Assembly (NCBI GenBank): GCA_021800255.1
Contig: JAJYZC010000021.1
Span: 1 to 45,911 of the forward strand
Direction of reading: 5' to 3'
Length of the DNA stretch: 45,911 nt
Source: Acidobacteriota bacterium
GTDB taxonomy: Bacteria; Acidobacteriota; Terriglobia; Terriglobales; Acidobacteriaceae
Under the pieces are notes generated by a model. That model worked only from the letters and a program-made list of their open reading frames with translations, had not been told where the DNA came from and did no database searches. Of the stretch, positions 9,539 to 20,918 are shown in pieces. The stretch's first letter is position 1. Every line of letters begins with the position of its first letter. The position numbers and the translations under genes were made by a program.

Positions 9539-10261
9539 TCAGAAATTCAGCCTGAACAACTGGCCTTGGGCGGCTTCCTCGTCCAGCTTGATTGGATCGA
9601 GCAGCGATTCATCGTTGTTTCGCGTATTGCCGACGCGGTCGCTGACCGGCCAGAGGTCGATGCGATCGGGCGCGACGGCACGCAGCAGTTCAGCGGAAGG
9701 CTCGCTTCCAGTGGGCGCATCAAGCCAGCTGGCGTAGTCTTTGCGTTCGACGATCACCGGCATCCGGTCGTGGATTGCGGCTAGGCGCTCGTTAGCGACC
9801 GTGGTGAGGATCGAGAAGGTTTCGAGCGGATGGCCGTCCTTGTCGCGCCAACTTTCCCAAAGGCCGGCGAAGGCAATCGGATTGCCGCCGACGAGCGTGA
9901 TGGCGTAAGGTTGGCGGGTCTTCGGGCCGGTCTTCTGCCACTCGTAGTAGGCGTCGGCGGAAATCTGGCAGCGGCGCTTCTTGAGCGCCTCCCGGAAGGC
10001 CGGTTTGGTGGCAGCCTCCTCGGCGCGGGCGTTGATGGCACCGAGGCCGATGCGCGCCTCTTTGGCCCAGGATGGAATCAGCCCCCAGCGCATCAGCGGC
10101 ATCTCGCGCCGGCCGCTCTCCGGGTTCAGCCGTACCACCGGCTGAAAGCTCTGCGGGGCGGCGTTCCAGGTTGGCGGCGCCCATCGCATGTGTTCGAGAT
10201 CCATCTCAAACCATTCCGCCAAAAGCTCTTGCGCGGATTTTCGGGCGTAGCGTCCACACAT
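9539..10261 (-). CDS. SOS response-associated peptidase, YedK/HMCES family
   Basis: 240 residues. The start is fixed by M-C-G-R-Y: Cys2 becomes the N-terminal nucleophile that forms a thiazolidine with abasic sites in single-stranded DNA. Other family residues are visible: W-N-A-A-P near residue 33, I-N-A-R-A-E-E near 77, C-Q-I-S-A-D-A-Y-Y-E-W and I-H-D-R-M-P-V-I-V, the last holding the conserved histidine. The frame stays open far upstream, but that part is antisense to imuA and imuB. The gene is divergent from imuA across 90 bases, so both may be induced together on DNA damage. Confidence 0.92.
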   Translation of the reverse strand: MCGRYARKSAQELLAEWFEMDLEHMRWAPPTWNAAPQSFQPVVRLNPESGRREMPLMRWGLIPSWAKEARIGLGAINARAEEAATKPAFREALKKRRCQISADAYYEWQKTGPKTRQPYAITLVGGNPIAFAGLWESWRDKDGHPLETFSILTTVANERLAAIHDRMPVIVERKDYASWLDAPTGSEPSAELLRAVAPDRIDLWPVSDRVGNTRNNDESLLDPIKLDEEAAQGQLFRLNF

Positions 10262-10299
10262 CGTGGCTCCAGAATACCCGGAAACAGCGGCGGCGGAGA

Positions 10300-10329
10300 T
10301 TGACAAACGATTGGAGTCGGTCGAATCAT
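10300..10329 (+). promoter_or_regulatory. Candidate imuA promoter
   Basis: TTGACA at 10300-10305 and AATCAT at 10324-10329 are separated by 18 bases and lie 22 bases before the imuA ATG. The -35 box is perfect and the -10 box matches 4 of 6. I see no recognisable LexA box, although imuA-imuB-dnaE2 operons are usually LexA-controlled; the LexA site of this lineage may differ from the models I know. Confidence 0.35.
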
Positions 10330-10351
10330 AGGCGAAGATAAGGCGAATATT

Positions 10352-11107
10352 ATGCCGACCGCCGCCGCCCTCCGGCTCCAGATCGAACGCTCTCTCGAAG
10401 CACGCTTTCCGGCGGCGCTCACGCCCGCGCCACGCACAATTCGGGAGACCGCGCCGACCGGAATTGCCGTCGTGGACGAGTTGCTCGAAGGCGGCTTTCC
10501 GGTTGGAGCCATCAGCGAGATCGCCGGCCCGGCCTGCTCGGGGCGGACCAGCCTGGCGCTGGCTTTTCTGGCGGGACGAACCGCCGAGGAGCGCTTCTGC
10601 GCCTGGGTGGATGCCGAAGACGCCTTCGATCCGGAATCGGCGGCAGCCATTGGAGTGCGGCTCAGCCAGTTGCTTTGGGTGCGTTGCGGCGGCGCGAAGA
10701 AGTCCGCGAAAAGCTGGACGCGGCTCGAGCAGTCGTTGAAGGCAACCGACCTGCTGTTGCAAGCGGGCGGCTTTGCGGCCATCGTGCTCGATCTGTCCGG
10801 GATTGATCCGGCCGAGGGAATGCGTATCCCGCTGGCCACGTGGTTCCGTTTTCGCCAGGCCGCCGAGCGCACGCGCTGCCCGCTCGTGGCGCTGGCCCGC
10901 GCTTCCTATGCGCAATCGAGCGCAGCCGTGGTGCTCGACGCCGAACCGATGCGCGCGGAGGTACTCGGCGGAACCGTGCTCCATGCGGGCGCGTTCCGCC
11001 TCAGACGCCGTCGGCAGCGATTCCAGCAGCCGTGGAACGGCGCGCGCAAACCGCCCGCTTCCACCTGGACTGCCGGCACGCAGTGGACCGTGGAGCGGAG
11101 CGCATGA
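10352..11107 (+). CDS. imuA: ImuA, RecA-like accessory protein of translesion mutagenesis
   Basis: 251 residues. A RecA-like core is visible, with P-loop-like G-P-A-C-S-G-R-T-S at about residues 59-67 and a Walker B-like strand A-I-V-L-D-L-S-G near 145. ImuA works with ImuB and DnaE2 in damage-induced mutagenesis. Gene order and overlaps confirm the assignment: its TGA overlaps the imuB ATG as ATGA. The C-terminus is basic (R-R-R-R-Q-R), compatible with DNA or partner binding. Confidence 0.88.
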   Translation: MPTAAALRLQIERSLEARFPAALTPAPRTIRETAPTGIAVVDELLEGGFPVGAISEIAGPACSGRTSLALAFLAGRTAEERFCAWVDAEDAFDPESAAAIGVRLSQLLWVRCGGAKKSAKSWTRLEQSLKATDLLLQAGGFAAIVLDLSGIDPAEGMRIPLATWFRFRQAAERTRCPLVALARASYAQSSAAVVLDAEPMRAEVLGGTVLHAGAFRLRRRRQRFQQPWNGARKPPASTWTAGTQWTVERSA

Positions 11108-12600
11108 ACGGCGAACTCTATCTTGCGATTCATGCGGCGGAGTTTCCCGCGCAGGCCTTGCTGCGGCTGCGGCCGGAACTCCGTTCGCAGCCGGTCGCCG
11201 TGCTGGACGGTCCGGCATTGCAGCAGACCGTCTGTGCGCTCAACCGTAAGGCCCGTTCCTGCGGCGCTGCACATGGCATGACGCGGCTCGAAGCGGAGGC
11301 GGTCGCAGGTTTGCAACTTATCCCGCGCTCTCTTGCCGAAGAGGCGCAGGCACGTGCAATTCTTCTCGAATGCGCCGCGCAATTCTCGCCGCGCATCGAG
11401 GAGACAAGCCGCGGAACTGCCTGTAGCTTTGTGCTCGACGGGACGGGTTCGGAACGGCTCTTCGGCCCTGTCGATGCGATGGCCGAGAAGGTGCGTCGAG
11501 CGGCAGCCAATGCGGGCTTTCGTATCTCCGTTGCCGCAAGCGCCAACTTCCATGCCGCGCGGCTGAAAGCTGCATTTTCGCCTGGAATGACGATCCTTCC
11601 CCGCGGCGAGGAATCGAGGGCGCTCGAAAAACTACAGCTCTCCGCGCTCAATCTCGGCGCAGAACAGGCAGAGACGTTTTCCATGTGGGGCATTCGCACC
11701 CTCGGCCAACTGGCGGCGCTGCCGGAAGATTCACTCGTGGCGCGCTTCGGCCCGGAGGCCAGCCTGTGGCGCGCGCTCGCAGCCGGAGCCGCGGCGCACA
11801 GCTTTCAGCCCATCGAGCCCGTGGTCGCACTGCGCGAGTTCTGCGAGTTCGACTCACCGATTGAGGAGATTGACTCGCTGCTCTTTATTGCTGCCCGCAT
11901 GATCGATGCGCTCGTCGCCCGCGTGGCGCAACGCGCTCTTGCTGTGGCTTCGCTTGCGATTGAAATGAATCTGGAAGGAAACCAGCGACATCACCTCTCC
12001 TTGCGACCAGCCGTTCCAACCATTGATCGCAAGTTTCTGCTGAAGCTGCTGCATCTGGAGGCCGCGGCGCATCCGCCGCAGGCCGCGGTTCTCTCGCTCG
12101 CCATTGAAGCCGATGCAGGACCCACGAGCAAGGTGCAGCTCGGCCTCTTCGCGCCGCAGACACCGGAGCCGTCCAGCCTTGATGTCACGCTCGCCCGCCT
12201 GCGCGCCATCGTTGGCGATGACCGCGTCGGCGCACCGGAACTGGAAGACACGCACCGGCCACAGAGCTTTCAACTCCGAGCATTGCACACAGCGGACTCA
12301 AAAGGCACGACTGCGAAACAAGAGGTGCGGATCGCTCTGCGCCGCGTACGGCCGCTGCGCACGGTCCACATGGCGCTGAATGGAGCGCGTCCAGCTGCAT
12401 TCCATGACGAGGGCAAACGCTACTCGGTTGCCTCCGCCTACGGGCCGTGGCGGTCGAGCGGCTGCTGGTGGTCGCAGGATGCCTGGGACAGCGAGGAATG
12501 GGACGTGCTAACAACGGACGTCTCTGGCGCAACCCTCGGCTGCCTGCTCGTGCGCGACCGGCTGCACAACGCCTGGCGGCTGGAGGCGTACTTTGACTGA
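11104..12600 (+). CDS. imuB: ImuB, catalytically degenerate Y-family polymerase
   Basis: 498 residues starting at the ATG inside the ATGA overlap with imuA. The fold is that of DinB-like polymerases. At the place where active Y-family enzymes have the first catalytic acid, the sequence reads L-Y-L-A-I-H-A-A-E-F, so the aspartate is missing, as expected for ImuB. A helix-hairpin-helix-like section (W-G-I-R-T-L-G-Q-L-A-A-L-P) lies near residue 197. ImuB bridges DnaE2 to the sliding clamp in the systems where it has been studied. The tail (W-S-Q-D-A-W-D-S-E-E-W) is typical of the family C-terminus. Confidence 0.9.
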   Translation: MNGELYLAIHAAEFPAQALLRLRPELRSQPVAVLDGPALQQTVCALNRKARSCGAAHGMTRLEAEAVAGLQLIPRSLAEEAQARAILLECAAQFSPRIEETSRGTACSFVLDGTGSERLFGPVDAMAEKVRRAAANAGFRISVAASANFHAARLKAAFSPGMTILPRGEESRALEKLQLSALNLGAEQAETFSMWGIRTLGQLAALPEDSLVARFGPEASLWRALAAGAAAHSFQPIEPVVALREFCEFDSPIEEIDSLLFIAARMIDALVARVAQRALAVASLAIEMNLEGNQRHHLSLRPAVPTIDRKFLLKLLHLEAAAHPPQAAVLSLAIEADAGPTSKVQLGLFAPQTPEPSSLDVTLARLRAIVGDDRVGAPELEDTHRPQSFQLRALHTADSKGTTAKQEVRIALRRVRPLRTVHMALNGARPAAFHDEGKRYSVASAYGPWRSSGCWWSQDAWDSEEWDVLTTDVSGATLGCLLVRDRLHNAWRLEAYFD

Positions 12601-15600
12601 TGCGGCGGAATACGTCGAACTGCACGCCACAAGTGCCTTCAGCTTTCTCGCGGCGGCCTCCGAACCCGATGCGCTCGTCGAGCGCGCTGTGGAGTTGCAG
12701 ATGCCGGCGATGGCGCTCACCGATCGCAATGGACTCTACGGCGCGGTACGCTTCCACTCTGCCGCGCGCCGCAGCGGCATCCGTGCGCATATCGGCGCGG
12801 AGATTGCCGTCGCCGACTTCGGCAGTCGCCTTCAGCCTGCTCCGTGGCTGCCGCACCAATGCCCGGAAGAACCTTCGCGCATCACGCTGCTTTGCGCCTC
12901 GCAGGCCGGATACAAAAATCTCTGCCAACTCATTACGCGCTTCAAGATGCGCGAGACAACAAAGTCCGAAGGTGCGGCGACACTCGAAGACCTTGAAGAG
13001 TTTTCGGCTGGACTGATCTGTTTGACCGGCGGAGACGAAGGACCGCTTGCAGCCGCGCTGGCAAATGGCGGCGCAAAGCAGGCGCGCTCGGTCGCGGAGC
13101 GCCTTGCTTCCATCTATGGCCGCGGCAATCTCTACATCGAATTGCAGCGGCATCAGCTACGGGGCGAGGAAGAACGCAATCAGGCGCTGGTTTCGCTGGC
13201 TGCGGCGATGAATCTTCCGGTCGTCGCCACGAACGGAGTGCGCGCTGCTTCGGGAAAAGACCGCGAGATTCTCGATGTGCTCACGGCGATTCGCCACCAC
13301 ACCACGCTCGACGCGGCGGGCCGTTTGCTCAGCATCAATAATGCACGCACGCTGCGCGATGCCCGGCAAATGAAGGCTCTGTTTTGCGACCTGCCCGAAG
13401 CCATCGCCAACACGCAGATCGTGAGCCGCCGTCTTGAATTCACCCTCGATAACCTCGGCTACGAGTTCCCGCGCTATCCCGTGCCCGAAGGCGCGACGAT
13501 GGACAGCTTCCTTGCAGAACGCGTCGCCGAGGGCGTGCGCAAGCGTTACGGTATTCCGTCCAAGCGGCACCTGCTCGAAAAGGCGCACGCGCAGGTCGAG
13601 CGCGAGCTTGCGCTCATCGCCAGGCTTGGCTTTGCCGGTTACTTCCTGATCGTCTGGGACATTGTTCGCTACTGCCAGCGCCAGGGCTTTCTTGTGCAAG
13701 GGCGCGGCTCGGCCGCCAACTCCGCTGTCTGCTATGCGCTCGAAATCACCGCCGTCGATCCGGTCGGCATGGAACTGCTCTTCGAGCGATTCCTCAACGA
13801 GAGCCGCAACGAGTGGCCCGACATCGATCTCGATCTGCCTTCGGGCAACGAGCGCGAGCAGGTAATTCAATATGTTTACGAGCGTTATGGCGCGCTCGGC
13901 GCGGCGATGACCGCCAATGTCATCACCTATCGCAGCCGCTCGGCCGCGCGCGAGGTCGGCAAGGTGCTCGGCTTCCAGGAAGAGCAAACGGCGCGGCTGG
14001 CCAGCCTGATGGGCCACTGGGAGTGGCGCGACGAGCGCGACACGCTTGCGCGGCGCTTTGCCGAAGTGGGCTTCGACCTGCGCCATCCGCGGATCGCGCG
14101 CTATCTCGACCTTTGCCAGCGCATCAAGAATCTGCCGCGCCATCTCGGCCAGCATTCAGGCGGCATGGTCGTCTGCGCGGGGCTGCTCAATCAGGTGGTG
14201 CCCATCGAGCGCGCCTCGATGGCGGGCCGCACCGTCATTCAATGGGACAAGGAAGACTGCGCCGAGATGGGCATCATCAAGATCGATCTGCTCGGTCTGG
14301 GCATGATGGCCGCGCTCCAGGAGTGCATCGAACTCATCCCGCGCCACTACTCGACGAGCGTCGATCTGGCCGCACTGCCCCAGGACCCCGTCGTTTACCA
14401 GACGCTCGCGAAAGCCGACACGGTCGGCATGTTCCAGGTCGAGAGCCGCGCGCAGATGGCCTCGCTTCCGCACAATTCGCCTGTGCGCTTTTACGATCTC
14501 GTCGTGCAGGTTGCCATCATCCGCCCCGGTCCCATCGCCGGCAAGATGATGCATCCATACATGCGCCGGCGCCAGGGCAAGGAGCCGGTCACCTATCCGC
14601 ATCCAAAGCTGGAGCCAGTGCTCAAGCGCACGCTCGGCGTGCCGCTCTTTCAGGAGCAGATCCTGCGCATGGCGATGGTCATCGCCGACTTCACCGGCTC
14701 CGAGGCCGATGAGCTGCGCCGCGCGGTCGGCATGCGCCGCTCCATGCAGCGCATGAAGAATCTTGAAGGCCGCCTGCGCGAGGGCATGACGCGCAACGGC
14801 GTCAGCACAGAAGTGCAGGACAACATCGTCAACAGCATCTCATCGTTTGCGCTCTACGGTTTCCCTGAATCGCACGCCGCCAGCTTCGCGCTGATCGCCT
14901 ACGCCTCGGCGTACCTGAAGGTGCATTATCTGGCGGCCTTCACCTGCGCGCTGCTCAACCATCAGCCAATGGGCTTCTACTCGCCCGCCGTGCTCATCAA
15001 GGACGCACAGCGCCACGGCCTACGCGTCCGGCCCATCGACGTGCAACGCTCGATGGAACTCTGCTCGCTGGAGCGGGAGCCGGATGGCTCGCTCTCGCTG
15101 CGCCTCGGCCTCAACTACGCGCGCGGCCTGCGTCAAAGCTCCATCGCGGCGTTGCTCGATGCGCGCGCACGATCAGAAGAGTTCGCATCCGTCGAAGACC
15201 TCGCCCATCGCGTGCCCGCGCTCAGCCGCCGCGAGCTGGTGCAACTGGCGCGCATCGGCGCGTTGAACTCGCTCGGCGATGTGGCCCATCGCCGCGACGC
15301 ACTCTGGCAGGTCGAAGAAGCCGCGCGCGCGACCGGCCCACTGCTCACGGGCGCATCGAGCCAGCGGTCCTCTGATTCGCCACTGCAACCGATGACCACC
15401 GAAGAACGTCTCGTCGCCGACTACTCCGGCGCGGGCCTCACCACCGGCCCGCACCCGATGGCCTATCACCGTGCAGCATTGCACGCCGAAGGCATTCTCT
15501 CTTCGGCCGATCTGCTGCGCTTCGGAAACAACGCGCCGGTCCGCATCGCCGGCTGCGTCATCGCCCGCCAACGCCCCGGCACAGCCAAGGGCTTCGTCTT

Positions 15601-15808
15601 CCTCTCGCTCGAAGACGAAGCCGGCATCGCCAACATCATCCTCACCCCGGACCTCTTCGAACGCGAACGCCTCACCGTCACCCGCAATCGCATCCTGCTC
15701 ATCGAAGGCCTGCTGCAAAACAACAACGGCGTCGTCCACGTCAAAGCCAGTGACATCCGCCCGCTCGACCTCACCGCCGCGGCCATCGCCTCGCACGACT
15801 TTCGATGA
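12593..15808 (+). CDS. dnaE2: DnaE2, error-prone DNA polymerase III alpha subunit
   Basis: 1071 residues starting at TTG 12593, which overlaps imuB by 8 bases and has GGAGG at 12582-12586. The PHP domain is at the N-terminus (E-L-H-A-T-S-A-F-S-F, M-A-L-T-D-R-N-G-L-Y-G). The polymerase core has Q-G-R-G-S-A-A-N-S and P-D-I-D-L-D-L-P-S, which supply catalytic aspartates. The segment G-F-P-E-S-H-A-A-S-F-A-L-I-A-Y is diagnostic for DnaE2 against DnaE1. An OB-fold follows near residue 975. It is the translesion replicase of the ImuA/ImuB/DnaE2 mutasome. Length and motifs appear intact. Its placement beside an integrase is the unusual part. Confidence 0.95.
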   Translation: MTDAAEYVELHATSAFSFLAAASEPDALVERAVELQMPAMALTDRNGLYGAVRFHSAARRSGIRAHIGAEIAVADFGSRLQPAPWLPHQCPEEPSRITLLCASQAGYKNLCQLITRFKMRETTKSEGAATLEDLEEFSAGLICLTGGDEGPLAAALANGGAKQARSVAERLASIYGRGNLYIELQRHQLRGEEERNQALVSLAAAMNLPVVATNGVRAASGKDREILDVLTAIRHHTTLDAAGRLLSINNARTLRDARQMKALFCDLPEAIANTQIVSRRLEFTLDNLGYEFPRYPVPEGATMDSFLAERVAEGVRKRYGIPSKRHLLEKAHAQVERELALIARLGFAGYFLIVWDIVRYCQRQGFLVQGRGSAANSAVCYALEITAVDPVGMELLFERFLNESRNEWPDIDLDLPSGNEREQVIQYVYERYGALGAAMTANVITYRSRSAAREVGKVLGFQEEQTARLASLMGHWEWRDERDTLARRFAEVGFDLRHPRIARYLDLCQRIKNLPRHLGQHSGGMVVCAGLLNQVVPIERASMAGRTVIQWDKEDCAEMGIIKIDLLGLGMMAALQECIELIPRHYSTSVDLAALPQDPVVYQTLAKADTVGMFQVESRAQMASLPHNSPVRFYDLVVQVAIIRPGPIAGKMMHPYMRRRQGKEPVTYPHPKLEPVLKRTLGVPLFQEQILRMAMVIADFTGSEADELRRAVGMRRSMQRMKNLEGRLREGMTRNGVSTEVQDNIVNSISSFALYGFPESHAASFALIAYASAYLKVHYLAAFTCALLNHQPMGFYSPAVLIKDAQRHGLRVRPIDVQRSMELCSLEREPDGSLSLRLGLNYARGLRQSSIAALLDARARSEEFASVEDLAHRVPALSRRELVQLARIGALNSLGDVAHRRDALWQVEEAARATGPLLTGASSQRSSDSPLQPMTTEERLVADYSGAGLTTGPHPMAYHRAALHAEGILSSADLLRFGNNAPVRIAGCVIARQRPGTAKGFVFLSLEDEAGIANIILTPDLFERERLTVTRNRILLIEGLLQNNNGVVHVKASDIRPLDLTAAAIASHDFR

Positions 15809-15869
15809 TTGCCCGGTTACATCCCCGTTTCCCGGTATCCACCCTCGGGAACCCACTCAATATAGGACT

Positions 15870-16934
15870 TCAACTCCTGGAGATTGCCTCGTTCCTATCC
15901 AAATGAGCTTTCCGAGCTTGTTCTTCTGACTTGAGGGCCTGGTTTATCCGGAATGAGATGGTGCCCCAGGATTCGTATGGGGGAGGAATGAGCTTTTCTA
16001 GCTCAAATTTGTCAATGCAGGTCAGGGCAAGCCGCAGACACTTCGACGCCCTATGCAGAAATGTGCTGAACAAGTTCACAGGAAGCTGACCTTCGCGTCC
16101 CCACCAATCATTAACGTCATCATTCAACGCATGGAGTGAATCGTAGTAGGCGATCAAGGCTGCCGCATCTTCTTCGGCAAGGTCCTGAACCTGTGGTGCG
16201 TTGGGATAGAGCTTTGGCCAATGAGGAATGAAATCTTGCTTCATATCAGTTGGCTTCGTCTTAATGTTCGCCGAGTACGAGACAAAATTAGCGAGAGCCC
16301 TACCGTGGATGTAGAGCACGCGATCAATCGTGCGCTGTAACTCTGGTGCGAGGCAGCGCCGCGCCTCGGAACGTCGGTTCGTTGACTGTGCCGTTGTTGC
16401 ATTAACCTCGGGACCGGAGTTCGAGGACTGGTCAACACTGCTCACATTGAGCCGTGCATTGGCTCCATAGAAAATTGCTTGGATCATCGGTTGAGTCGAA
16501 GCGACCGCATCTGAGCTGAGCCGCTGTTCAGTTTGCCGTAGTTCGACGAGCCTTGCTTGTACCCTCTCCCACCAGTTTGATCCGGGGTCGCAAGTTGTGA
16601 GGTCTTTTGTCCAATATGCTGTCTCGGAACGAACCGCATCAAGGGTTTGGGGAATTGGGTCCTCAAGTTTCGGCTTCTCTTTGACCAGTTGGTCAGCCAC
16701 TTCAATTCCCTCTGAACTAAACGCTATGATTTGAGTTGTCTCGGGCTGGAAGGCGATGAATTTGTTCCTGAGCAGATACGTGATCGCTTCGTTTCGCGAC
16801 TGATCCGATAGTCCGGCTTTCTTCGCAATCCCGGCCCATTCCATCGGAGTAATGCGAGCATTCAGACGCTTTTCGCCAGCGAAACGGCGGAGTTCGGCAA
16901 GGAGTACGCGTGCGGAGTTGCCAAGCGCACTCAT
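15870..16934 (-). CDS. Hypothetical protein with N-terminal winged helix and G-A-N-A-R-L-N motif (operon gene 2)
   Basis: 354 residues. The first ~85 look like a winged helix (I-T-P-M-E-W-A-G-I-A-K-K-A-G-L-S, then a hairpin ending F-S-S-E-G-I-E-V-A). Near residue 155 comes Y-G-A-N-A-R-L-N-V-S-S-V-D-Q-S-S-N, which parallels a motif in the upstream gene. The C-terminal half is helical with aromatic and acidic patches (N-D-D-V-N-D-W-W-G-R-E-G) and no enzyme signature I recognise. Its ATG overlaps the stop of the upstream gene (ATGA), so the two form an operon. I do not recognise the family. The location between dnaE2 and the integrase suggests cargo of the mobile element, perhaps defence. Confidence 0.7.
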   Translation of the reverse strand: MSALGNSARVLLAELRRFAGEKRLNARITPMEWAGIAKKAGLSDQSRNEAITYLLRNKFIAFQPETTQIIAFSSEGIEVADQLVKEKPKLEDPIPQTLDAVRSETAYWTKDLTTCDPGSNWWERVQARLVELRQTEQRLSSDAVASTQPMIQAIFYGANARLNVSSVDQSSNSGPEVNATTAQSTNRRSEARRCLAPELQRTIDRVLYIHGRALANFVSYSANIKTKPTDMKQDFIPHWPKLYPNAPQVQDLAEEDAAALIAYYDSLHALNDDVNDWWGREGQLPVNLFSTFLHRASKCLRLALTCIDKFELEKLIPPPYESWGTISFRINQALKSEEQARKAHLDRNEAISRS

Positions 16935-17743
16935 GTGGTCGCCACCAATAGGTTATGCACCCAATGCCCCAGAGCAGGCAGATATGGTCCGATGAGGGTC
17001 ATGTGATCGGCCGCGGCGGCGATGAATGCCTGATACCTCTTAGTTCCAGAGTTGCGATCAGTTGCCGCCTCAAGGTCAGAGAGTCTCTGTAAAATCGCGG
17101 TGCGCTCGACGCCGTCCGAAACACCCGATTCGATAGCCTTCCGCAGTTCAGAAAACGGCACACCTTGGTGAACGACGTTCGTCGAATTGTCAGTGCTGTC
17201 TATGTTGACCCGTGCATTGGGTCCGTGGACGTTGAAGACCTGATTCACTTGAGGCTCCTTTCGTGCAGCATCACGCGTACCATTGACACGAGCCTTTTCG
17301 AGTTCTATTTGAACTTCGTCAAATCGGGGAAGATTGTGGTCGCCTGACAACTGTTGCCGGACACTGATGGGCAAGTGGACCGCGCCAGGAAGACGTTGAA
17401 CGTCGTGGAGTAACGCATTCTTCCTCTGCGCCATCAGAAACTCTTTGACAGCGCCCTTGATACCGGTGCAAAGGCGTTCGTCGAGCCTGATGTCGTATAA
17501 GGCACACGTTTCAAGGGCGGTCTCCAAGTATCCCATTGCCATGTTCCCGGCGAATTCTTGCGAAAGGTTCCACTCGGCCAGTTGAAGATGCCCAGAGCGC
17601 ATTGCATTTCTGGCGGCAGCATCCCGCCGAACAGCTAAAAGCTTCTCGTTGTGTGCAGCTCTCGCCGCTTCCCACTTCGAATTCCGAAGTCGAATGAAAT
17701 GAGACTGCGCGTGCGCCGGTAGATAGTGTTGGATCTCAGGCAT
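16931..17743 (-). CDS. Hypothetical protein with G-P-N-A-R-V-N motif (operon gene 1)
   Basis: 270 residues in three parts. An N-terminal helical part (about 1-145) is alanine- and arginine-rich. A short beta-like segment near residue 167 reads F-N-V-H-G-P-N-A-R-V-N-I-D-S-T-D-N-S-T-N. The C-terminal helical part has S-E-L-R-K-A-I-E, then L-S-D-L-E-A-A, then A-A-A-D-H-M-T-L-I-G-P-Y-L-P-A-L. I recall the N-A-R-V-N-x-x-S-x-D-x-S-x-N segment from assorted bacterial hypothetical proteins, some in abortive-infection (AbiTii-like) contexts, but cannot name a function. It is cotranscribed with the downstream gene, which carries a version of the same motif; this suggests that the two proteins contact each other through it. 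Confidence 0.7.
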   Translation of the reverse strand: MPEIQHYLPAHAQSHFIRLRNSKWEAARAAHNEKLLAVRRDAAARNAMRSGHLQLAEWNLSQEFAGNMAMGYLETALETCALYDIRLDERLCTGIKGAVKEFLMAQRKNALLHDVQRLPGAVHLPISVRQQLSGDHNLPRFDEVQIELEKARVNGTRDAARKEPQVNQVFNVHGPNARVNIDSTDNSTNVVHQGVPFSELRKAIESGVSDGVERTAILQRLSDLEAATDRNSGTKRYQAFIAAAADHMTLIGPYLPALGHWVHNLLVATT

Positions 17744-17947
17744 TGCCTTGCAGAAATGATAAATCCGACGCGGGCCAGCCCGTCATCTAGGTCGATGACC
17801 GTGATTCGCTCCAAAGCATAGGTGTGGAGAGTGAGGCCAGCCTTCTACCTATAGCGTGGGACCTCGACTCTACCTTTCAAACCCGCCAATCGCGTCAGTA
17901 TTGGGAAGTCGGCTTTGTGCCAGGCGTCGATTGCCCATTCCGCCCCC

Positions 17948-18883
17948 TCACTCGATCGGCAAGCTCAACTGCTGAGGCATACTGCGGTCTTCCCAGCATT
18001 TCACAAATTTCCGCGCGAACTCGCTGACCAGTTGTGACCGGTTGTCGGCGAGCGACACCAAGTGCGTCTCCATGTGAATGTGCTCGTCCATCAGCGGCAG
18101 GCACACAAAACCCTGATGGACCGCAAGCTCAGCGCCGGCTGGGTTGATCCAGCCGATAATGGAGTCGTTATGGAGCATCGCGGAAGCCTGGGCCACATGG
18201 GTTCCGAAGTGCATAATCTTCGCCGGCCCATAGTCGGCCTCCACACGGCGCAGAATCAGATCGTGCAGGAAGGGATGCGTAACGCGCCGGAAGAAGACCC
18301 ACGGATATGCAACGATGTCGGCGAGCGTCACGAATTGCTTTCCCGCGAGTGGATGTCTCGGGCGAAAGATGATCATGAAATGATCTCGAGCAATGCGCTG
18401 CTGAGTGAGCGCCGCATTTGGCGCCGGCGATGCGACAAGCGCCACATCGACATTCTTGTTCTGCACATCAGCGATCAGTTCCGGCGAAAAGCCGGTTACG
18501 ATTTCGACGGCGAGCTGCTTGTAGAGCGGTAGTTCGACCGCATGGATCAACGCGATCAGTTGCGGCGGCAAATACAGGGAGACCCCGATGCGCAGCTTTT
18601 GGCGCTCGCCGTATCTGGCCTCCCGTGCGTCGTGTACTGCGCGCTGCAATGTATGGAGGATTTGCACGGCATCGGAAACGAACATGCGGCCTGGTCCCGT
18701 CACCATCGCGCCGCCGTGCGTTCTCTCGAAGAGACGCACCTGAACCTCGCGTTCCACCATTTGCAGCCGTTTGCTCAGCGCAGTTTGTGTGACTCCGATG
18801 CGCCTGGCTGCCTGCGTGAAGGTTCCTTCTTCCTGGAGGGCCACGACCATTTCAAGGTCGCGAAACTTCAGTTGAGCATTCAT
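17948..18883 (-). CDS. LysR-family transcriptional regulator
   Basis: 311 residues from the ATG at 18883, chosen because AGGAGG lies 8 bases upstream; the frame extends to 18928 without support. The N-terminal helix-turn-helix is complete (F-T-Q-A-A-R-R-I-G-V-T-Q-T-A-L-S-K-R-L). It is followed by the linker helix and a periplasmic-binding-like effector domain (L-R-I-G-V-S-L-Y at ~90). The effector and targets are unknown. It is divergent from the excisionase gene across about 330 bases, so it might control the excisionase/integrase region or simply be cargo. Confidence 0.92.
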   Translation of the reverse strand: MNAQLKFRDLEMVVALQEEGTFTQAARRIGVTQTALSKRLQMVEREVQVRLFERTHGGAMVTGPGRMFVSDAVQILHTLQRAVHDAREARYGERQKLRIGVSLYLPPQLIALIHAVELPLYKQLAVEIVTGFSPELIADVQNKNVDVALVASPAPNAALTQQRIARDHFMIIFRPRHPLAGKQFVTLADIVAYPWVFFRRVTHPFLHDLILRRVEADYGPAKIMHFGTHVAQASAMLHNDSIIGWINPAGAELAVHQGFVCLPLMDEHIHMETHLVSLADNRSQLVSEFARKFVKCWEDRSMPQQLSLPIE

Positions 18884-19216
18884 CGTTTCAACCTCCTGTC
18901 GCACTCTCGTTTCCTTGAGAGCCACCAAGGCAGCAGGTGATGCAACCGGCTAAAACGAAACGACTTCCCCCCAATATAAGGAAACTATTGCATCCCGAAT
19001 ATCTGGTCAACAAAAATCTGGCCAGGCTCTGTTACCAAGAGACATGTGTCGCCAGAATGACACGCGCCCACGGATTCCGAGGGCTCTAATCCACTGGAGA
19101 TGGTGATCTATTCCATTTCGTCATACCCAACTTCCAAAAAGTTATTGGACAAACCGGCACGCAATGCAGGAATGTGCAAGAAAGAACGGCATTCCCTGAC
19201 CAAGGAGCGTGCTCTC
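18884..19216. other. Divergent intergenic region between lysR and xis
   Basis: No gene is visible. The right part (from 19105) belongs to the sequence duplicated near the excisionase at 42295-42647. The first 49 bases of that block (19105-19153) are identical in both copies although non-coding, and contain AACTT-CCAAA-AAGTT at 19129-19143, a small operator-like palindrome. Promoters for lysR and xis should lie here. Confidence 0.5.
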
Positions 19217-19609: not shown

Positions 19610-20815
19610 ATGGGTGCGCAGAAGACGACCGGCGTTGTCGAGCGAGAGCCGGGTTCCGGTATCTGGTGGATTCGCTATACCGATGCTCAGGGTAATCGGC
19701 ACTGGGAGAAATGCGGACGCCGGAGCGACGCGATCACTCTGCTCGCCAAGCGCAAGCACGAAAAGCTACTACGCAAAAAGCTCCCGGAAGCGCTGCGCGG
19801 CCGCGCGGTCACTTTCGGTGAACTAGCCGAGAAGGCGAAGCTATTTTCCGAAGAGAGCCACACTCCCCAGCATCATCACCAGTTCGTCATCAAGCTCCAG
19901 ATCATTGGCGAGCATTTCAACGAACTGCCCGCAGAAGGAATCACAAGCGAAGACATTCAGGCATGGTTACTGGAGCAAGGTGAAGAGCGCGAGTGGACTC
20001 CGGCGACGCGGAACCGCTACCGCGACGCCTTCTCGCTCGTCTTTCGCAAGGCTGTCGAGAATCATGTGCTCACGGTCAATCCTGCCACACTGGTTAAAGC
20101 CAAACCGGAACATAACGAGCGGGTTCGCTTCCTGAGCGTGGAGGAGGAAACGAAGTTGCTTACCGTCCTGAGTGCGAATTGGCCCGAGCACATTCCGGCG
20201 TTTCTCTTGTCGATCCATACGGGAATGCGAGCCAGTGAGCAGTTCCAGTTGAAGTGGCGGGATGTGTCTTTCGAGCGCCGAATGATCTCCCTGCCCAAAA
20301 CCAAAACCGGGAAGGCTCGGCACATTCCGCTCAACGCTATCGCCCTGCATGCGATTGAGGAGCGGAAACAGGCCCAGGATAGATTCGAGGCCGGCCAACG
20401 GTCGAAAGGGGCAGTGCGCTCCGAATTCGTTTACGTCTTCAGGGATTCCGGAAACCCACAGCACAACTACCGGCGCTGGTTCAACGAGGCGCTGGCGGAA
20501 GCCAAGATCAAAGACTACTCCTGGCATTGCAACCGGCATACATTTGCAAGTAGGCTGGTTATGGCAGGAGTCGATCTCCGCACGGTTGCCGAACTGATGG
20601 GACACAGCAGCATCCAGATGACCATGCGATACGCCCATCTCGCGCCGCAGCACAACCGCGCGGCGGTCGACCGGCTTGTGCCGGATTCGATGGTGACCAA
20701 TCGGCCTGCGAAGAAGGGCGCGAAATCGGCGCTGCGCGAATATGAACTGGTCACTAAATCGGTCACCAACAAAATTGAACAGTCAGAAAGTGCCGCAAAA
20801 TGTCAGTATAATTAA
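19610..20815 (+). CDS. int: Tyrosine recombinase / integrase
   Basis: 401 residues. An N-terminal AP2-like or arm-binding part precedes the SAM-like core-binding domain (residues ~70-155), and the catalytic domain follows. Catalytic residues are visible: Arg in H-T-G-M-R-A-S-E, Lys in K-T-K-T-G-K-A-R-H-I-P-L, H-x-x-R in W-H-C-N-R-H-T-F-A-S, His in L-M-G-H-S-S, and the Tyr nucleophile in T-M-R-Y-A-H. It appears intact. Its stop is 26 bases from the 5' end of tRNA-Arg, so the gene reads toward the attachment site. The C-terminal codons overlap a GGTCAC direct repeat (20749-20768) that recurs at the other tRNA fragment. Confidence 0.95.
   Translation: MGAQKTTGVVEREPGSGIWWIRYTDAQGNRHWEKCGRRSDAITLLAKRKHEKLLRKKLPEALRGRAVTFGELAEKAKLFSEESHTPQHHHQFVIKLQIIGEHFNELPAEGITSEDIQAWLLEQGEEREWTPATRNRYRDAFSLVFRKAVENHVLTVNPATLVKAKPEHNERVRFLSVEEETKLLTVLSANWPEHIPAFLLSIHTGMRASEQFQLKWRDVSFERRMISLPKTKTGKARHIPLNAIALHAIEERKQAQDRFEAGQRSKGAVRSEFVYVFRDSGNPQHNYRRWFNEALAEAKIKDYSWHCNRHTFASRLVMAGVDLRTVAELMGHSSIQMTMRYAHLAPQHNRAAVDRLVPDSMVTNRPAKKGAKSALREYELVTKSVTNKIEQSESAAKCQYN
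20749..20768 (+). repeat. Candidate integrase arm-type site (left)
   Basis: GGTCACTAAATCGGTCACCA is a double GGTCAC repeat lying 73 bases before the tRNA 5' end. It matches 19 of 20 positions with the reverse complement of 43915-43934 beside the other tRNA fragment. Short direct repeats on both flanks of a core site are what arm-type recombinase sites look like. Confidence 0.55.
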
Positions 20816-20841: not shown

Positions 20842-20918
20842 GGCCCCGTAGCTCAGGTGGATAGAGCAGCAGTTTCCTAAACTGCGTGTCGGAAGTTCGA
20901 GTCTTCCCGGGGTCACCA
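20842..20918 (+). tRNA. tRNA-Arg (anticodon CCT), attachment site
   Basis: A complete 77-nt cloverleaf. The acceptor arm GGCCCCG pairs with CGGGGTC (one G-T pair). The D arm is GCTC/GAGC. The anticodon arm GCAGT-TTCCTAA-ACTGC has anticodon CCT. The T arm is GGAAG-TTCGAGT-CTTCC, followed by discriminator A and encoded CCA. Positions 1-43 recur on the minus strand at 44065-44107. The intact gene is directly downstream of the integrase, consistent with an element that supplied the 5' half during integration. Confidence 0.97.

Follow-up and report, generated by a model that had tools for sequence, protein, structure and literature searches.

A G-x-N-A-R hinge motif common to two overlapping genes of an Acidobacteriota bacterium: a candidate defence-type protein pair

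Introduction

AbiTii (PF18864; PADLOC PDLC02334), a family named for abortive infection, has been described as a domain of the alpha+beta type, behind which several homologues, but not the original protein, have a HEPN domain; the parts of that account available here do not mention a hinge (PMC3710099). The BASS/NLR and fungal HET-S/NLR clusters are presented as genes that lie side by side or overlap and have a short motif in common (PMC7889193, PMC5485727), and the RHIM core is given as the tetrad (V/I)-Q-(V/I/L/C)-G (PMC9444067). The present work concerns a pair of overlapping genes, termed B and A, found on the minus strand at positions 15870-17743 of a 45,911-nucleotide stretch of DNA (hereinafter, the window; contig JAJYZC010000021.1, assembly GCA_021800255.1) from an Acidobacteriota bacterium of the family Acidobacteriaceae. 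Both products carry the motif G-x-N-A-R-x-N-x-x-S-x-D-x-S-x-N, referred to below as the hinge. Judging from sequence, they appear to be related to AbiTii-like modular defence proteins.

The likeness to AbiTii arises from other loci (loci and genomes are designated by L and G numbers, respectively). In L002, with a clear motif, and in L037, with a weak variant, the AbiTii domain is combined with such a hinge and with the C-terminal module of protein B. Unlike these proteins, B has a different N-terminal domain, and both the AbiTii domain and that C-terminal module are missing from A; PF18864 was not found in A or B by Pfam search up to E=10. The combination of hinge and C-terminal module is not defining for the Pfam family and, of the two proteins, occurs in B only. 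Furthermore, the AbiTii genes with a hinge that were found are single, unlike the pair in the window. Similar to the BASS/NLR amyloid signalosomes, A and B are encoded by overlapping genes and have a common short motif. However, Pfam reveals no NLR (NB-ARC/NACHT) in A or B, and their motif is internal rather than N- or C-terminal.

The literature searched did not yield a description of the motif, and a search for the motif strings gave unrelated papers, most subscription papers and preprints being outside the scope. The available parts of PMC8086366, PMC3710099, PMC5485727, PMC7889193, PMC11514479, PMC9444067, PMC7885112 and PMC12261475 contain no such description. The literature searched also gave no answer as to how AbiTii-type proteins are switched on.

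The gene pair and its shared motif

Gene B (16931-17743, minus strand; 270 amino acids) is the first, upstream gene of the pair, and gene A (15870-16934, minus strand; 354 amino acids) is the second, downstream one. As the initial annotation stated, the two open reading frames (ORFs) overlap as ATGA (16931-16934, minus strand), which holds the stop codon of B and the start codon of A; both frames are intact and the overlap is exact. The hinge of B, GPNARVNIDSTDNSTN, covers residues 174-189 of 270 (17171-17245 including flanks, minus strand), and that of A, GANARLNVSSVDQSSN, covers residues 157-172 of 354 (16413-16484 including flanks, minus strand). The pattern consists of G-x-N-A-R-x-N and then the alternating invariant residues S-x-D-x-S-x-N, the invariant columns stemming in part from the search patterns by which some loci were retrieved.

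The presence of the motif in both products is above chance. A model built from 14 other loci and containing no window sequence was run against the 892 stop-to-stop frames of at least 30 amino acids; the scores were 46.6 bits for B (E=1.2e-13) and 25.5 bits for A (E=4.8e-7), the next frame reaching 2.3 bits (E=8.7). The top score in 20 residue-shuffled sets was 9.6 bits. In the whole genome of the bacterium, a motif profile that included the window sequences matched the sites in A and B only (E<=0.01). The proteins are otherwise different, as had been proposed earlier: BLASTP of A against B produced one alignment of 45 columns that ends in the motif (E=4e-5), so that the similarity is confined to the stretch around it. 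An origin of the shared hinge at the DNA level was considered and set aside. The codons GGA, AAT, GCA and CGG are common to the two hinges and six of nine identical residues share a codon, which is not outstanding among the pairs compared.

The reading preferred here, tentatively and with rather low confidence, is that A and B form an accessory, co-translated, defence-type two-protein module that would co-assemble via the shared hinge and resides on DNA that is mobile or often replaced. Assembly of A with B through the motif is a plausible hypothesis.

The motif had also been called beta-type. The AlphaFold2 (AF2) monomer models do not bear this out: both lack regular structure at the motif, where the predicted local distance difference test score (pLDDT) is below 50. 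A hinge disordered in the monomer models and containing alternating invariant polar residues could belong to an amyloid-type signalling pair like BASS/NLR, in which A, once activated, would act as a template for cross-beta folding of the B hinge; the arrangement as overlapping genes with a short common motif agrees with the published descriptions of such clusters (PMC7889193). Nevertheless, such a mechanism is quite improbable, considering that the pair lacks an NLR, that the motif is internal in both proteins, that the other loci are unpaired and that profile comparison relates the motif to none of the other hinges in AbiTii-query matches.

The hinge in other loci

Nineteen further distinct loci contain the motif (L002, L005, L006, L007, L008, L024, L025, L030/L058, L035/L059, L036, L037, L038, L039, L040, L048, L049, L050, L087 and L089). 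Two weak members, L024 (12.3 bits) and L037 (9.5 bits), were kept in this count; a 10.8-bit match in a 53-amino-acid frame of L023 was judged spurious and dropped. L036 represents a large set of similar plasmid records (H21-H57), one of which was examined. Among genomes, the motif was detected in 2/396 of the sample of the same phylum (the own genome and G402; E<=0.01) and in 1/398 of another phylum (E<=0.001). A single motif gene is present in each of the complete plasmids behind L002, L005 and L006 and in each of the whole genomes G402 and G791.

Domains are exchanged on both sides of the hinge in these loci. On the N-terminal side, the partner is AbiTii in L002 (Pfam E=8.9e-34) and L037 (E=6.2e-28) and AbiTii-like by eye in L007. 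In L005, L036, L008 and L038, the partner is the N-terminal part of phrog_16834, beta-rich by eye, and these proteins are near full-length matches to that family. The C-terminal side is occupied either by the helical module of B or by a second module, more hydrophobic by eye (L008, L025, L036 and L038; hydropathy was computed for L036 and L038). The hinge and C-terminal stretch of L036 match the PADLOC candidate PDC-M14B (E=8.6e-11, positions 151-257 of 267), whereas A and B do not match it; searching with PDC-M14B gave one weak match in 160 genomes versus one in 14 control genomes. B itself is related to phrog_16834, a family of unknown function, through its hinge and C-terminal region: the profile covers B residues 166-259 only (E=3.7e-8; profile positions 94-190 of 192). 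The N-terminal part of the family, by contrast, is absent from A and B, and PHROG gave no match for A. Phage records contained no match for B and none for L036. The motif does not mark the A/B pair as such; it is a modular hinge.

At the place equivalent to the hinge, the proteins L042-L047, which were found with the AbiTii query, contain other, Q-containing hinges. A kinship of these with the G-x-N-A-R hinge was rejected, since hhalign found no similarity; therefore, only the position is common. L044 (4001-4882) and L047 (4001-4879) have near-identical hinges with SQIQIGS, which contains, perhaps by chance, the RHIM core tetrad IQIG; the tetrad does not occur in the G-x-N-A-R hinge. Related SQ[VIF]Q hinges are present in L042, L043 and L045. 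L046 (12001-19035, record NZ_CP039627.1) belongs to an Aeromonas caviae plasmid in which nine places match the AbiTii query; its genes at 12001-12885, 13060-13956 and 18217-19035 are alike where they end and look like a repeated family. In L041 (2968-7944) from Rhizobium rhizogenes, the AbiTii-query gene comes after an AbiD-type gene, and a CBASS cyclase is located a few genes further on. In L005 (3322-6324), on a Phaeobacter plasmid, the motif gene stands beside UmuC-like and SOS-peptidase genes; the pair in the window is likewise found near ImuB-DnaE2 and SRAP.

Protein A and relatives of its C-terminal domain

Neither A nor B has a Pfam match up to E=10, and the NCBIfam and PDB-sequence searches of both proteins gave none above the cut-off; weak matches to phage_O_Nterm and ChaB, far below the cut-off, were discarded. 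In A, the model (mean pLDDT 77.8) predicts a winged helix at residues 1-73 (16716-16934, minus strand), a helical hairpin at residues 93-157 (16464-16658, minus strand) and a C-terminal helical bundle (15873-16409, minus strand), referred to as the A C-terminal domain (A-CTD). The winged helix has the helices 3-19, 30-39 and 44-56 and the strands 60-63 and 68-71; beyond the hairpin come the motif region 147-175 with pLDDT <50, a long helix 176-221 and further helices to the end. The alignment behind this model had 15 rows, with relatives for the C-terminal domain only.

The initial annotation assigned a winged helix to the second protein, and the model agrees. In the model, residues 1-73 show the helix-helix-helix-strand-strand topology of a wing and are aligned by VIA-align to many solved winged helices with Z 7-8, mostly over 64-70 residues at 2-3 A, although the program warns that Z <8 can reflect merely a common arrangement. 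This region has no sequence family match; its two matches in plasmids are both at chance level, and Foldseek of the A model gave none at E<=0.001. For A-CTD, a PDB sequence profile search gave no credible match. The VIA rows for this domain (the design 8dt0, Z 9.9; the FAT domain 2l6f, Z 8.2; DUF3829 4yjw, Z 7.3) resemble common helical arrangements and were not used.

Two overlapping genes on accessory DNA, one for a protein with a predicted winged helix and the other for a partner whose module is common to proteins of the abortive-infection family AbiTii, bring to mind a toxin-antitoxin-like pair, with B toxic and A an autoregulator binding and restraining B via the hinge. In most toxin-antitoxin operons the antitoxin gene comes first, whereas here the predicted DNA-binding protein is second. 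In addition, an operator-like inverted repeat was not found upstream, A and B have no family match above the cut-off, and the motif proteins elsewhere have no motif-bearing partner; this explanation is considered unlikely.

Relatives of A-CTD number 18, comprising 15 genome-contig loci and three plasmids; there were no matches in viral contigs, and only the own genome has the domain among the 396 genomes of the phylum sample. Sixteen columns are invariant across 15 sequences. Where A has the winged helix and hinge, 11/18 relatives have a hydrophobic N-terminal segment (19 residues with a mean hydropathy of at least 1.3). The aligned N-terminal stretch is below this threshold in L004 and L019, and L017, L022 and L023 have no intact N-terminal part as read. 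In the remaining two relatives, L009 and L002, A-CTD follows an HNH domain. The HNH part of L009 matches PADLOC PDC-M68A (E=7e-34) and next CBASS effector endonucleases, the best being PDLC00739 (E=1e-26). With this L009 protein A shares A-CTD, but it has the winged helix instead of the nuclease. The L002 protein scores 20.8 bits with HNH_2, just below the cut-off of 21; the motif is lacking in this relative of A, whose gene is convergent with the AbiTii gene having the hinge and the B C-terminal module.

In both L009 (5527-6597) and L002 (5653-7299), the HNH domain is joined to A-CTD by another linker (GGITAHTV...). The HNH and A-CTD proteins of these two loci are candidate effectors with an undescribed sensor domain.

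Protein B and its relatives

The N-terminal domain of B (residues 1-164; 17252-17743, minus strand) is predicted to be helical. In the AF2 model, which is weak because of its mean pLDDT of 61.4, residues 10-116 form a helical part and residues 197-268 four C-terminal helices; the long linker between them (111-194, pLDDT <50) contains the motif. Foldseek of this model gave none at E<=0.001. Sequence profile searches against the PDB gave no credible match for the B module or for the L002 AbiTii protein.

The C-terminal helical module (16958-17176, minus strand) is common to L002, L007, L037, L005, L006, L024 and L058. By profile search and alignment, it is present together with the hinge in the AbiTii or AbiTii-like proteins L002, L007 and L037. 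The N-terminal domain alone was found at E<=0.01 in 3/396 genomes of the phylum (the own genome, G421 and G283), with no matches in viral contigs and plasmids. In G421, the relative shows 46% identity over residues 1-162 and is fused to a PDC-S60 region (residues 200-394, E=2.7e-27); its DUF4062 match of 20.5 bits is under the Pfam cut-off of 24.7. B is linked to the PDC-S60/DUF4062 proteins by this fusion in its relative, but lacks the PDC-S60 region, while the G421 protein lacks the hinge. In G283, a fragment (residues 81-152) is in frame behind a weak match to an IS110-type transposase (19.3 bits versus a cut-off of 29).

Proposed mechanism and its alternatives

In the preferred reading, each protein is built of three parts: an N-terminal domain that varies, the G-x-N-A-R hinge and a C-terminal module of helices. 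The hinge, unstructured in the monomer, may form a beta-arch on self-association, which would fit the alternation in S-x-D-x-S-x-N behind G-x-N-A-R-x-N. Given their almost identical hinges and overlapping genes, B and A would co-assemble through this element. The winged helix of A might bind DNA, either its own promoter or invading DNA. The C-terminal bundle of A could be the sensing or regulatory part, considering its place behind HNH domains or hydrophobic N-terminal segments elsewhere, and B would exert a toxic or blocking activity upon phage infection.

The proposal of the initial annotation that the pair is a defence candidate is sustained indirectly. Parts of A and B recur in AbiTii, HNH (CBASS-type L009) and DUF4062/PDC-S60 proteins, the hinge recurs in the PDC-M14B match, and the pair is accessory, although A and B themselves match no defence profile.

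A number of observations weigh against the preferred reading. None of the families of PADLOC-DB 2.0.0 matches A or B up to E=10, and phage defence is suggested solely by the company that the domains keep. The hinge motif has no structural match. In the interval 15700-18000, no promoter-like site was found, versus 1.2 expected in shuffles; upstream of B there is no good operator-like repeat, only an 8-base pair of repeats 109 bases apart, and these two results give no support for autoregulation. Rare distribution prevents a comparative test of co-evolution. What speaks most against heterotypic assembly is that 19/19 other loci have just one hinge in the stretches examined. As none of them has a second motif gene, heterotypic use of the hinge is not the rule. 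Motif-mediated assembly is weakened by the same count and by the fact that the B module occurs near 1/18 A-CTD relatives (L002). The 14/14 genomes behind L009-L017 and L019-L023 have no motif at E<=0.01, L018 being outside this count as the same strain as L017.

The same facts agree with the hinge serving homo-oligomerisation of each protein separately, as a common joint of domain shuffling that was passed between neighbours or acquired independently, with no contact between A and B through it. Single motif genes in all 19 other loci, the many different N- and C-terminal domains joined by the hinge, the hydrophobic N-terminal segments of 11/18 A-CTD relatives and the 14/14 genomes without the motif speak for this explanation. 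However, both motif genes of the own genome overlap, although the motif is found in so few genomes of the samples. That so rare a motif is present twice in one genome, and in overlapping genes, is the strongest point for heterotypic assembly. Separate homo-oligomerisation is likewise given rather low confidence, slightly below that of co-assembly of A with B, which is retained as the tentative preference.

In a wider and rather unlikely interpretation, G-x-N-A-R-x-N-x-x-S-x-D-x-S-x-N would be an undescribed class of bacterial signalling motif, an NLR-independent beta-arch assembly hinge of defence proteins of the AbiTii class, and of related ones, that are encoded on plasmids, viral contigs and islands. 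The A/B operon would then be its heterotypic form, composed of a winged-helix sensor and an effector, much as RHIM and BASS join receptors and killers. Were the hinge an assembly motif, many hypothetical proteins of plasmids, viruses and islands would be brought together in one mechanistic class by a single short profile. It would also provide a simple mutational handle (G, R, N and S-D-S-N) on how AbiTii-type proteins switch on. The pair in the window would then offer the best test case for a joining of different proteins by the hinge.

Genomic location, distribution and neighbouring genes

The A/B pair is accessory and lies next to a mutasome operon, at a site that is variable and low in GC. 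The guanine-cytosine (GC) content is 52.5% in A and 54.4% in B, similar to Abi_alpha (51.9%) and DUF3800 (52.8%); it amounts to 64-66% in SRAP, ImuB and DnaE2, 58.0% in the LysR gene and 57.0% in the integrase gene. No A, B or LysR was found by tblastn downstream of DnaE2 in 8/8 relatives (L075-L082; 1.6 to 7.7 kb each). Full-length B is present in 1/60 relatives and the motif with the B module in 1/110 genomes of the family, the own genome in both cases.

No second copy of the pair was found in any search made; a residence of the pair mainly in core genomes, an outcome that the initial annotation had named as contrary to its proposal, was accordingly not observed. The lack of a copy elsewhere, along with a relative of the B N-terminal domain that is a fragment in frame behind the weak IS110 match, could also indicate neutral or decaying cargo having no joint function. 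This is very unlikely in view of the two intact frames with their exact overlap and of the 16 invariant A-CTD columns over 15 sequences.

DnaE2 (12593-15808, plus strand) is the convergent neighbour of the pair and is accompanied by ImuB (10840-12600). On the other side, a gene of a LysR regulator (17948-18928, minus strand) lies upstream, 204 bases from B, and is regarded as context, not as part of the unit. The defence-like surroundings described earlier were recovered in part: Pfam recognizes ArdC (N-terminal domain), Abi_alpha, DUF3800 and a phage-type integrase, but the immediate neighbours of the pair are DnaE2 and LysR and not Abi-type genes. The integrase gene (19610-20815, plus strand), whose family is patchy in relatives (14/31 genomes including the own one), adjoins tRNA-Arg (20842-20918) and ends 26 bases before the 5' end of the latter. 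The usual attachment side of integrases is the tRNA 3' end, opposite to this arrangement. No attachment-site repeat of at least 18 bases involving the integrase was found in the window.

The neighbours of A-CTD in the 15 loci were scanned with Pfam and PADLOC for 83/131 ORFs, the A-CTD genes and the outer or overlapping frames being excluded by hand; 25 of 97 Pfam and 25 of 180 PADLOC families were listed. Among the matches listed there are three replication initiators, two resolvases, two CAP12/Pycsar TIR proteins and one each of type I restriction-modification, YhcG, TrwC, TrwB and ThsB-like proteins, as well as ordinary chromosomal families (MFS, AcrB, aldolase, GGDEF/EAL). These matches are context and not a tested enrichment. 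In L009-L023, 2/83 neighbouring proteins match the CAP12/Pycsar-type TIR and 2/83, possibly the same two, match PDC-S35. A CAP12/Pycsar TIR neighbour is a possible partner of the A-CTD proteins having a hydrophobic N-terminal segment.

The 559-amino-acid SRAP frame of the window (9539-11218, minus strand) looks over-extended, its SRAP domain comprising residues 320-531. In four relatives, the N-terminal half of the frame finds its match on the strand opposite to that of their ImuB, at a place where by eye an ImuA-like gene is situated. An ImuA-like gene of 251 amino acids may lie opposite the SRAP frame at 10352-11107 on the plus strand.

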